From positions 1 to 22,112 of IMG/VR virus record IMGVR_UViG_3300009194_000053: a stretch of DNA of 22,112 nucleotides; one strand, written 5' to 3'. This document shows, piece by piece, positions 6,921 to 22,112 of the stretch. A program made the translations under genes and the position numbers. The notes beneath the pieces were generated by a model, which did no database searches, was not told the origin of the DNA, and saw only the letters and a program-made list of their open reading frames with translations. Position 1 is the stretch's first letter, and every line of letters begins with the position of its first letter. The stretch comes from a virus.

Positions 6921-7222
6921 GCCGCGCTCCAGGGTGTGCCAGTGGCAACCACAGGATTCTTCTGCAAGGCGATCTGTGCAGCCAAAGCAGCTTCGGTGGC
7001 TGTCTTGTCAACGCCCGATGACCAGCACCAATCCAAAACCTCTTGCATGGTCACATCAGAATAAGGAATAGTGGGTGCAGCCTCGGCAAAGCTGCAAGTG
7101 GAATAGATGGAGGCTGTGTAGTCGCCATCAACAGCAGAGGCAGTCCAATGGGCGGTCGTGATGAAGCCGTTGGCGGTTTCGTAGTCGGTTTGGGTGATAA
7201 CCCAGTTGTATGCGATGGTCAT
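6917..7222 (-). CDS. Conserved phage protein, beta-rich (101 aa)
   Basis: The protein opens MTIAYNWVITQTDYETANGF, then ITTAHWTASAVDGDYTAS. An N-terminal beta-sandwich-like half is followed by a helical half containing TMQEVLDWCWSSGVDKTATE and ALAAQIALQKNPVV. This matches a frequent family encoded just after tail fibre genes (DUF7936 is my tentative label). AAAGGA precedes the ATG at 7-base spacing, in the only sizeable gap of the window. It may be a small virion or fibre-associated protein; the role is inferred from position only. Confidence 0.72.
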   Translation of the reverse strand: MTIAYNWVITQTDYETANGFITTAHWTASAVDGDYTASIYSTCSFAEAAPTIPYSDVTMQEVLDWCWSSGVDKTATEAALAAQIALQKNPVVATGTPWSAA

Positions 7223-20224: not shown

Positions 20225-20548
20225 TTATGCCTTGAGCGTTGCCAGCATAAACAGGATGCAGCACCCAGCGTGCGCCAGGTGCGGTAAGTTGGACTCAGGG
20301 TCATTGACCTCGCCATTTTGATGCGCCACCAAATGCCGAAACGCTGCGGCCATGTATCTGGCATCAGCGTTTTCAACTTTGCGCCAGTTGTCGCGGCTGT
20401 ACTTTTGCGCTCCGAACTCCAGCACCCTGATCACATCCTCCAGCCCATCCCATGGCACTAAGGTGTAATCCAGCTTGCCGCTGTCGTGCTTCATGCCCAC
20501 AGTCGGCTCATTTGAATCAATAGCCACTTCAATCATCTCAACATTCAT
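20225..20548 (-). CDS. DUF5664 protein, dATP/dGTP diphosphohydrolase N-terminal-like
   Basis: A 107 aa helical protein. The signature GMKHDSGKLDYTLVPWDGLE, then DVIRVLEFGAQKYSRDNWRK, RYMAAAFRHLVAHQNGE, and SNLPHLAHAGCCILFML is that of the DUF5664 family (Pfam name as I recall it: dATP/dGTP diphosphohydrolase, N-terminal). Metal-binding candidates are Asp/Glu in the first half and His72, His76, His90 and His93. It would hydrolyse purine dNTPs or otherwise act on the nucleotide pool. It overlaps the upstream gene by ATGA and ends just before TerL. The family call is firm; the reaction has not been shown for this branch. Confidence 0.82.
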   Translation of the reverse strand: MNVEMIEVAIDSNEPTVGMKHDSGKLDYTLVPWDGLEDVIRVLEFGAQKYSRDNWRKVENADARYMAAAFRHLVAHQNGEVNDPESNLPHLAHAGCCILFMLATLKA

Positions 20549-20937
20549 ACCTGTCCTTTCCTGATTTCTCTGATCGTGTCGCGTGTCATCGCCATGTTGA
20601 ACACGCTGTTCATTCGGTGCATCGCGTGGACCTGCTGGTCATATCTGCGCCTGTTGGCGGCAGGGTCGGCCTTGGGTTTTGGCTTATCCCGCTGATCGCC
20701 CAATGCGTAAACAGGCCTTGGATACCTCCGCGCCCCATCATGGCCATACGTCCAGTCAATGATGTGGATGCGCTTGTCGCCAGCCTTGGTCCGCTTATTC
20801 ATCCGCAGCAGCACCGCATGGGCGTCATACCTGGTGATGTCGGCCCAATCGGCAAACTCTTGCGCACTCATCCGGCCAAACTCTTGCAGTGCTGCCAGCA
20901 CCTTGATCACGTTCGGCCCAGTGTTCAGTGTTGTCAT
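20545..20937 (-). CDS. Winged-helix-like DNA-binding protein (TerS or regulator candidate)
   Basis: A 130 aa protein from ATG 20937. The N-terminal part (VIKVLAALQEFGRMSAQEFA, then DWADITRYDAHAVLLRMNKR) has the helix-turn-helix spacing of winged-helix domains, followed by a wing-like segment DKRIHIIDWTYGHDGARRYP. A basic linker (RDKPKPKADPAANRRR) and a helical C-terminus follow. The ATGA overlap with the 151 aa gene decides the start; longer versions lack support. It lies two genes before TerL, so it may be the small terminase, or a regulator of the operon. Confidence 0.72.
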   Translation of the reverse strand: MTTLNTGPNVIKVLAALQEFGRMSAQEFADWADITRYDAHAVLLRMNKRTKAGDKRIHIIDWTYGHDGARRYPRPVYALGDQRDKPKPKADPAANRRRYDQQVHAMHRMNSVFNMAMTRDTIREIRKGQV

Positions 20938-21389
20938 GTCTGCTCTTTCTTCTTTTGTGATACCACCAGCTTGATGGCTTTCTCCATCTCTTGGACCGTG
21001 CATTCGTCAAGCTGCTCGATATGCACCGTCATGCCCAGCTTGACCGCCTGCATCTCTGGGCCGGTGAACAAAAACCTGCCTGTCGCCTCACCACGGTCGT
21101 GCATCGCATAAGCCGCATCTTTGGCCGCCTGCAACTCTTGGGTCCAGTCGGCTCCCAGCTTGGGGTTGACCTTGACCAAACACAGCGCCATGTCAAACGC
21201 CTCACGCATGGTGTGCGAGTCCACCCCCTGACCTTGCCCCTTGATCAACGCCTCCAGCGCCTCCAAGTTGCCCAGCTTCAGATGCACTCCAGCCTTCGGC
21301 ACACTGCCCACCGCCTTGAACCCAGCCCTCACCCAACTCATGTTGTCCAGCCTCACGCCCTTGGGCCTGTAACTGCTCTTTTTCCTCAT
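20934..21389 (-). CDS. Conserved phage protein of unknown function (151 aa)
   Basis: A 151 aa protein beginning with a very basic segment (MRKKSSYRPKGVRLDNMSWV). A helical middle (HLKLGNLEALEALIKGQGQG, then HTMREAFDMALCLVKVNPKL) follows, then GRFLFTGPEMQAVKLGMTVH and a charged helical end (VQEMEKAIKLVVSQKKKEQT). It has no membrane segment. The R-K-x-S-x-Y-R-P-K-x-V-x-x-D start occurs in many phages near terminase genes. ATGA overlaps join it to the 39 aa membrane gene and to the winged-helix gene. It could be a nucleic-acid-associated or packaging-related protein; the function is not known. Confidence 0.72.
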   Translation of the reverse strand: MRKKSSYRPKGVRLDNMSWVRAGFKAVGSVPKAGVHLKLGNLEALEALIKGQGQGVDSHTMREAFDMALCLVKVNPKLGADWTQELQAAKDAAYAMHDRGEATGRFLFTGPEMQAVKLGMTVHIEQLDECTVQEMEKAIKLVVSQKKKEQT

Positions 21390-21505
21390 TCATCCATCTC
21401 CCGATTCGGCTTTCGGCTGTCACGCCAGATGGCCCAGCCGCACAGTAGGCCGTGCGACCATGAAACCAGAATGATCAGCAAGGTGTTGAGGTCGATCTCT
21501 CTCAT
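21386..21505 (-). CDS. Membrane peptide, 39 aa
   Basis: A short frame reads MREIDLNTLLIILVSWSHGL, then LCGWAIWRDSRKPNREMDE. One membrane segment spans about residues 8-27, with an acidic N-terminus and a charged C-terminal tail, so N-out/C-in is plausible. It starts with a good SD (AGGAG, 6-7 bases from the ATG) in an ATGA overlap with the 99 aa gene and ends in an ATGA overlap with the 151 aa gene. It is well supported as a real gene despite its size. The function is unknown; it lies far from the lysis region. Confidence 0.68.
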   Translation of the reverse strand: MREIDLNTLLIILVSWSHGLLCGWAIWRDSRKPNREMDE

Positions 21506-21801
21506 GTGTTGCTCCTGGCTCGGATGGCGGCTGCGTAGGTCTTTCCGTAAAAGTCTGTTGCTGTTGGCCCTAATCGTTCCTCACACACCTTTGCACACGC
21601 CTCACGCTCGGCATGAATCAGACCTTTAATGTGTTCATCCAGCGCCTTGATGACGTATTGCGCTGCTTCGTCCATAGGAAAGTCTGGGTTGACCTTTACA
21701 CCATTCTTATCAATCCTCATAGCCTCTTTGCTTGAGTTGGTCAGAAAAGTGATGTTTGGCTCAACTGTTCCTTGAATGCCTAAAGTAAAGTTGTTGTTCA
21801 T
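21502..21801 (-). CDS. Conserved phage protein with Ea22-like C-terminus (99 aa)
   Basis: ATG at 21801 with GGGAGAAA upstream gives MNNNFTLGIQGTVEPNITFL. The middle (KEAMRIDKNGVKVNPDFPMD, then EAAQYVIKALDEHIKGLI) resembles a small phage domain that follows the pattern R-x-D/K-x-x-G-x-x-V. The end (AEREACAKVCEERLGPTATD, then YGKTYAAAIRARSNT) is the Cys-containing E-R-E-A-C-A-x-V-C-E, A-A-A-I-R-A-R motif common to Ead/Ea22-like proteins. It could be a fusion of two short modules. Its last codons coincide with the repeated SD junction. The function is unknown. Confidence 0.7.
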   Translation of the reverse strand: MNNNFTLGIQGTVEPNITFLTNSSKEAMRIDKNGVKVNPDFPMDEAAQYVIKALDEHIKGLIHAEREACAKVCEERLGPTATDFYGKTYAAAIRARSNT

Positions 21802-21830
21802 GTTTTCTCCCATCGGTGTTGGCAAATCAT
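21798..21830 (-). CDS. Possible 10-codon coupling ORF
   Basis: Between the 55 aa and 99 aa genes an ATG (21830) overlaps the upstream TGA and opens MICQHRWEKT, whose TGA overlaps the ATG of the 99 aa gene. It has the same strong SD (AAGGAG at 6 bases) as its neighbours and encodes the next gene's SD. It could be a leader that carries ribosomes to the 99 aa gene, a remnant of a lost gene, or chance. The encoded peptide has no recognisable feature. Confidence 0.3.
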   Translation of the reverse strand: MICQHRWEKT

Positions 21831-21994
21831 GTGTTGCTCCTTGCTCGGATGGCAGGGTTTGCACCGTTTAGCCCTGTTGGTTTATGCCATTGCATTCGAC
21901 CGGGAACATTTGGCCTCCATGCGCCGCATCGGTAGCACCAAACAATGTGACCACCAGCAATAAGCCAAATTGACTGTCGATGATCGTGCTTCAT
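21827..21994 (-). CDS. Conserved small phage protein (55 aa)
   Basis: ATG at 21994, preceded by AAGGAG at 6 bases and in an ATGA overlap with the upstream gene. The sequence begins MKHDHRQSIWLIAGGHIVWC and continues YRCGAWRPNVPGRMQWHKPT. The W-C-Y-x-C-G-A-W-R motif with G-x-x-W-x-x-P-T-G and G-x-N-P near the end is a recurring small phage protein; the C-x-x-C could bind a metal or be redox active. It ends AIRARSNT, the same last residues as the 99 aa protein, because both genes end in the same repeat. Confidence 0.65.
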   Translation of the reverse strand: MKHDHRQSIWLIAGGHIVWCYRCGAWRPNVPGRMQWHKPTGLNGANPAIRARSNT

Positions 21995-22112
21995 GTGTTG
22001 CTCCTTGCGTTCAGCCATGCACCAAACTTTGCAATCTCTGGATAGTTCTTAAACCAATCTTTTGCCGCTTGCTCGTTAAGAGATTTCACGCCATGTTCAA
22101 GGTCAGACTGAA
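21991..22112 (-). CDS. Partial gene, 3' end only (cut by window edge)
   Basis: The last 39 codons of a gene enter from the right edge: QSDLEHGVKSLNEQAAKDWF, then KNYPEIAKFGAWLNARSNT. It is helical and mildly charged, with no recognisable domain. It ends in an ATGA overlap with the 55 aa gene, and its final NARSNT is encoded by the same SD-containing repeat. What it does cannot be told from this fragment. Confidence 0.55.
   Translation of the reverse strand, partial: QSDLEHGVKSLNEQAAKDWFKNYPEIAKFGAWLNARSNT

Follow-up and report, generated by a model that had tools for sequence, protein, structure and literature searches.

The window analysed here is the whole of a 22,112-base virus contig, IMG/VR record IMGVR_UViG_3300009194_000053, which is a fragment. 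It carries an array of small genes on the minus strand, upstream of a gene with a dATP/dGTP diphosphohydrolase N-terminal domain and of the terminase large subunit gene. The best matches to the window terminase are IMG/VR contigs; among annotated phage records, the closest terminase is 74% identical and derives from a sample of spring water. The diphosphohydrolase-domain gene (20225–20548, 107 aa, PF18909) adjoins the terminase gene; protein similarity to it was found in only three of the compared relatives, and another gene occupies its position in the others. In many relatives, small genes linked by ATGA overlaps form a chain upstream of terminase, often starting at a conserved 54-aa gene, and their turnover is very high. 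The array is a hypervariable small-gene region of uncultured freshwater tailed phages. Its features are listed below, with L numbers denoting compared loci.

21991–22110, minus strand: partial gene of which 39 codons remain, running off the contig end.
21991–22005, minus strand: junction copy 1, an exact repeat that forms the end of the partial gene (..NARSNT and stop) and the SD and ATG of the 55-aa gene.
21827–21994, minus strand: 55-aa gene, with a body HDHRQS..WCYRCGAW and a tail AIRARSNT distinguished by homologue comparison.
21849–21856, minus strand: approximate fusion point CCTGC/CATCCGAGC, from DNA alignment with seven homologues.
21827–21853, minus strand: junction copy 2, the 27-nt block GCCATCCGAGCAAGGAGCAACACATGA, exact in L038, L188, L136, L342, L453 and others.
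21798–21830, minus strand (read from 21830 to 21798): 10-codon ORF MICQHRWEKT and stop, apparent remnant of a CxHRWE..CxxCGAF gene.
21502–21801, minus strand: 99-aa gene, starting MNNNFTLG, placed in the ERE family by family comparison.
21610–21801, minus strand: N-module of the 99-aa gene, like that of L108/L109.
21583–21609, minus strand: intragenic core block GAGCGTGAGGCGTGTGCAAAGGTGTGT (EREACAKVC), at whose edges breakpoints cluster.
21529–21582, minus strand: C-module LGPTATDFYGKTY of the 99-aa gene, common to L110 and L112 on unrelated N-modules.
21502–21528, minus strand: junction copy 3, the end of the 99-aa gene and the SD and ATG of the 39-aa gene, with a private A>C change.
21386–21505, minus strand: 39-aa gene (MREIDLNTLL), with homologues in other loci.
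20934–21389, minus strand: 151-aa gene, 91% DNA identity with L040.

The sequence AGGAGCAACACATGA occurs in three exact minus-strand copies (21502–21516, 21827–21841 and 21991–22005) and nowhere else in the 22,112-base record. When up to three mismatches were allowed, five sites were found against a shuffle mean of 1.03, and five sites were reached in none of 100 shuffles. Each copy reads AGG AGC AAC ACA TGA (R S N T stop) and overlaps the ATGA of the next frame, so that the junction block holds an SD and a start codon in the ATGA overlap, with a 6-nt spacer. An earlier note on this DNA had described the repeat as both gene end and next translation start, and these three SD/ATGA copies bear it out. 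It was also correct in assigning about 27 common bases to two of the copies: copies 2 and 3 are identical at 26 of 27 positions (GCCATCCGAGC[A/C]AGGAGCAACACATGA), and copies 1 and 2 have 18 bases in common. The shuffles rule out chance similarity between SD sequences as the cause of the repeat, and so does the conserved sequence upstream of the SD. The copy at 21830 serves as the start of the 10-codon ORF, and not directly of the 99-aa gene; this ORF in turn ends in a second SD/ATGA overlap, GGGAGAAAACATGA, that supplies the SD and start (21801) of the 99-aa gene.

Sequence comparison places the AAAIRARSNT tail and its junction in one small-gene family, with the consensus MxRxDIIRMAREAG–LERFAALVAAAEREACAKVCE–CAxAIRARG and no match in Pfam or PHROGs. 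The 99-aa protein had been called Ea22-like; Pfam lends this no support, since Ea22 matched neither the window protein (E ≤ 0.1) nor any of five family members (E ≤ 1), and the protein belongs instead to this unnamed family. A 66-aa member was modelled with a mean pLDDT of 85, giving three helices at residues 3–12, 23–46 and 53–65. The DNA-conserved blocks are about 24–30 nt long, and comprise the core (middle helix) and the 3' block (last helix plus the next SD/ATG). In this model the helices are encoded by the conserved blocks and the links by the variable segments; exchange would alter the links while the scaffold is kept. A fold search gave no PDB match better than E 4.3, and its close viral matches were only uncharacterised proteins of uncultured phages. 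More conserved islands were seen in the family (e.g. L110:268-558 and L172:5899-6096), namely a start block ATGAGAGACACGATAGACATGGCC (MRDTIDMA) and AAAGCCTTTGAAGCCCTTGTCCGT (KAFEALVR), which suggests further exchange blocks. A DNA island with unrelated flanks, CTCTACACCACCCCACCCGCAGCA (LYTTPPAA), was found in L028-L203 and possibly marks another small-gene family built from blocks.

The partial gene resembles the C-terminal part of an ERE family variant (tblastn of its body; the L141 homologue has AEREA upstream), and its homologues in L141 and L316 end in NERGNT and EARGQS. For the 55-aa protein, no match was found among annotated phages, and homologues turned up in the IMG/VR scan. Those of L439 and L440 are 88% and 86% identical over residues 1–50, and end in NPAMKEVKP and stop with their own SD/ATGA; the remaining homologues diverge after NPA or NPG, and NP-AIRARSNT occurs in the window alone. 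Alignment with these homologues shows the window gene to be a 55-aa body joined in frame to the 3' block of the family. In L439, the 55-aa homologue is followed by a family gene ending in AIRARSKHD and then by a CxHRW gene; in L440, it is followed by a family gene ending in AIRARGNT, a 35-aa gene and the CxHRW gene. The window differs in that its 55-aa body leads directly into the AIRARSNT tail, and the 10-codon CxHRW remnant follows. An in-frame deletion likely took out a family gene that lay between the 55-aa and CxHRW genes.

The earlier note had proposed exchange at the 27-base homology, with the 99-aa copy as the possible source of the shared tail. For the 55-aa fusion itself this does not apply, as the join (CCTGC/CATCC) has only about 2–5 bp of microhomology. 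The proposed source is probably wrong as well: copies 1 and 2 carry the family consensus GCAAGG and copy 3 a private GCCAGG, and because of this A>C change copy 3 is unlikely to have given rise to copy 2. The deleted family gene, in an order still seen in L439, is the likelier source. A similar event can be read from the 10-codon ORF, whose 5' sequence TGCCAACACCGATGGGAG is the same as in the complete genes of L039, L040 and L439, and whose 3' end GGAGAAAACATGA is the same as in L196. Complete CxHRW genes read TGCCAACACCGATGGGAGCC.., the L196 gene ends TTTTGGAGAAAACATGA and the window has TGCCAACACCGATGGGAGAAAACATGA; the MICQHRWEKT ORF therefore looks like the product of an in-frame deletion joined at GGAG/GGGAG. 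The description of the three gene products as unrelated proteins is true of their present bodies; even so, the 99-aa protein belongs to the family, the partial gene resembles a variant of the family and the 55-aa gene is a fusion to a family tail. We take the shared ending of the three neighbouring genes to be a visible scar of gene-piece shuffling.

The 99-aa gene is itself composite. Its N-module has 76% DNA identity over 150 nt with that of L108/L109, where the C-module is unrelated (27%), whereas its C-module has 67–69% identity over 45 nt with that of L110/L112, where the N-modules are at 22–28%. By these alignments, the gene is a mosaic joined at the core. Further along the array, homologues of the 39-aa gene, whose product is probably a small membrane protein judging from a hydrophobic stretch, lie behind the same block in L148, L372 and L373 and behind other junctions in L037 and L038. 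Identity between the 151-aa gene and L040 starts at the ATG and is absent just upstream, which sets a breakpoint at window position 21390.

In all, 229 distinct core-bearing genes from 195 loci were compared. A C-module with 80% DNA identity or more was common to 129 pairs, only 12 of which shared the N-module too, and the downstream DNA was unrelated in 117 of the 129. Conversely, 55 pairs had an N-module in common, and the C-module was also shared in 12 of them. In pairs sharing one side only, the left end of identity fell at core position 0 or -1 in 52 of 98 cases and the right end most often at position 29 (20 of 41). Where the same C-module preceded different downstream genes, identity stopped in 51 cases at 0 to +2 nt, counted from where the ATGA ends, and otherwise within the SD and spacer. 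One C-module, EDKNTLLAWPTYA, was found on six unrelated N-modules. When terminase anchors were treated alike, the split pattern appeared in 0 of 17,020 pairs, in a terminase set that is less diverged. These results show, at the level of sequence comparison, that the assortment of N-modules, C-modules and downstream genes is nearly independent and that breakpoints lie on the block edges. Exchange also reaches into genes, the core of the 99-aa gene being no less active than the junction. A literature search on such intragenic shuffling returned nothing specific.

The junction blocks recur in a similar way. Searched in other contigs with 0–1 mismatch, the 27-nt block has about 20 contexts, in which the upstream gene nearly always belongs to the same family and the downstream gene is of at least 10 kinds; this is the search that the earlier note had called for, and the outcome agrees with its expectation. 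A related 18-mer, AAGGAGAAGAACACATGA, is present in at least 120 stretches of IMG/VR; it forms an ATGA stop/start junction at 133 of 143 sites, with 28 upstream and 77 downstream clusters. The 3' block is carried by one upstream family at 105 of the 133 sites, so simple inheritance of a conserved C-terminus accounts for some of this recurrence. Right ends of similarity fell within 0–10 nt after the ATGA in 109 of 512 cases, about ninefold over random, and left ends between relatives fell at the start codon and again 20–40 nt upstream. In a small set of junctions, similarity within a genome was only slightly above that between genomes, which indicates that the block is common to these phages and not private to one. 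The idea that the repeats act as exchange points is largely right, in that the block recurs and similarity stops there, though the setting and the mechanism of the fusion differ from those proposed. Relatives with gene turnover do carry the repeat, and the 39-aa gene sits behind different junctions.

Repeats of other kinds were also seen. In L118 (312-1472), consecutive genes end in GCCATCCGCGCAAGGAGCAAGAAATGA or a variant, unlike the repeat of the window; the type of repeat can therefore vary between phages yet agree within one. L018, a different phage, has a repeated SD/ATGA junction of 25 nt, ..GCTAGAAGAGGAGCAAGAAGATGA, on the reverse strand near 6994 and 7300, hinting that repeated junctions occur outside this phage group.

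In an unbiased scan, we looked for 17-mers occurring with unrelated flanks in 177 sequences (1.66 Mb), which had been picked by relatedness to the terminase, 99-aa or 54-aa protein and not by the repeat. The top 17-mers all came from three blocks: GCCGCCATCCGAGCAAGG.. (the AAIRAR.. tail and junction), AAGCCAAACTCAAGGAGAAGAACACATGA (an EAKLKEKNT tail and junction) and the EREACAKVC core inside the 99-aa family. Contigs were compared across 566 loci for exact matches of 24 nt or more; since both strands are counted and related contigs pair up repeatedly, the proportions matter and not the absolute numbers. Ordinary matches (n = 114,322) had both flanks homologous in 89% of cases and neither in 2.1%. 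For core matches the values were 0.7% and 84%, and for tail/junction matches 14% and 78%. Codon usage pointed the same way: in sequences with unrelated upstream DNA, the Arg codon of AIRAR was CGA in 33 of 52 (9% in long ORFs) and the Ala codon of the block was GCA in 48 of 52 (21% in long ORFs), and the core Ala codon was GCG in 50 of 60 (24% in long ORFs). The blocks keep synonymous positions although the neighbouring DNA is unrelated. Only the final codons of the junction block can be put down to SD function, which accounts for nothing in the core. The core was absent from all 369 genomes searched as a bacterial reservoir, those of the class to which a terminase-bearing MAG belongs.

Taken together, these data make it probable that the repeats are both scars and sites of a recurrent exchange of gene pieces, by short-homology recombination and by microhomology deletions. 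The alternative that fares best, and that we regard as a tenable if less favoured account, is illegitimate recombination plus selection alone, in which joins occur anywhere, survivors are those that keep frame and ribosome-binding site, and the blocks are the conserved ends of a successful family. The window fusion and the CxHRW deletion, with only about 2–5 bp of homology at the join, fit this account, as do the one family that carries most 3' blocks and the failure to find a classic phage recombinase in 17 relatives; it leaves unexplained the pile-up of left ends 20–40 nt upstream of starts, the breakpoints at both edges of a 27–29-nt intragenic block and the synonymous-site conservation. 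It is unlikely that the blocks are translation or regulatory elements needed by every gene, comparable to the SAS repeats that set a precedent, with recombination incidental. The SD, spacer and start in the ATGA overlap are what such elements would contain, but the strongest island is the core, inside a gene and away from starts; the junction block continues for 10–15 nt beyond the SD on its upstream side; no block gave a stable RNA structure; and the flanking modules assort independently.

That one ancestral gene was duplicated in tandem and its copies diverged, with no exchange between phages, seems improbable to us: tandem family members with the same tail do exist in L056 and L118, yet different phages combine C-modules of 80–100% DNA identity with N-modules that are unrelated, and homologues of the 55-aa body have another native tail. 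Nearly all the data are metagenome contigs, and repeats of 24–30 nt can mislead assemblers at low coverage, but chimeric joining of different phages at the repeats is improbable, given that six recombinant combinations recur in at least two loci (one of them in four), that frames remain open, that divergence of the modules goes beyond identity, and that OR003940, a GenBank phage genome from a lake sample annotated as complete and circular, carries the 27-nt block and a mosaic in which an L561-like N-module is combined with a C-module like that of L505.

Recurrent exchange at the blocks would be driven by homologous annealing during infection, with microhomology deletions as a second route. Every 3' block supplies an SD and start in the ATGA overlap, and a swapped-in gene would be translated at once while its neighbour stays translated, which is why such joins would survive selection. 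Candidate enzymes in the relatives are a gp2.5-type single-stranded-DNA-binding protein (SSB) and a PDDEXK exonuclease: PF10991 (Enc34-type SSB) and PF12705 (PDDEXK exonuclease) were each found in 17 of 20 relative records. In most relatives (G001–G014 and G017), the Enc34/gp2.5-type SSB gene lies a few kb from the exonuclease gene. A search of 17 relatives for the ERF, RecT and Rad52 families found none, and AAA_24 matches were below cut-off. The Enc34 SSB has the T7 gp2.5 fold (PMC5686142), and Gp2.5-like proteins are one of the phage recombinase superfamilies (PMC3945230). By analogy of fold class, the SSB may thus act in annealing, and the two proteins possibly form an annealing pair, a suggestive arrangement. 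The minimal pairing length is 23–27 bp for Red-beta and 31–34 bp for RecA (PMC3945230); at 24–30 nt, the blocks are close to the former and below the latter.

More tentatively, the blocks may be maintained as addresses, at which annealing would mix N-modules, C-terminal links and downstream genes between co-infecting phages, with the three-helix scaffold and translational coupling preserved. If so, this would be a phage diversity-generating system that works on coding-block homology and not on a reverse transcriptase or site-specific recombinase. The array also hints at a way in which phages go on producing new small proteins with immediate translation. It is still debated whether mosaicism in phages reflects targeting by short homology or joins made at random and then selected (PMC3233612, PMC3945230), and a system with many natural breakpoints mapped to a few bases would make the question testable.

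Among known systems, a diversity-generating retroelement target is argued against by the variable segments, which are replacements of whole modules, shared at 80–100% DNA identity. PeSLs, the mobile regulatory cassettes of T4-type phages, consist of a promoter and a stem-loop in intergenic DNA. They resemble our blocks as repeated short elements between small genes that are tied to modular shuffling, but the blocks are coding and have no stable fold. In 1982, Kroger and Hobom reportedly described lambda ninR as a chain of ATGA-overlapping small genes. The window array has in common with ninR its interlinked small genes, stop/start overlaps and an SD inside the upstream gene; it differs in genes and position, in its repeated long junction blocks and in combinatorial exchange.

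The SAS of cluster K mycobacteriophages, 13 bp with the consensus GGGATAGGAGCCC, lie upstream of starts and are proposed initiation or binding elements (PMC3203893). Like our blocks, they are AGGAG-containing repeats at the starts of small non-structural genes of different families. By inspection, AGGAG is all that the blocks have in common with the SAS consensus, and unlike SAS the block extends across the stop/start overlap, its conservation reaches further upstream, and recombination breakpoints coincide with it. The closest comparison is with the boundary (linker) sequences of lambdoid phages (Susskind and Botstein 1978; Clark et al. 2001, as cited in PMC3233612), proposed targets of homologous recombination (PMC3233612). 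In both cases, short conserved sequences stand at module boundaries with non-homologous flanks. Lambdoid boundary sequences lie between genes, whereas our junction block, a coding end plus the next SD/ATG that may recur several times per genome, is coding, and the core, an equally active block that swaps gene halves, is intragenic. Phage mosaicism at boundary sequences is already known; its intragenic, combinatorial extension is the unusual part and one that should surprise the specialist.
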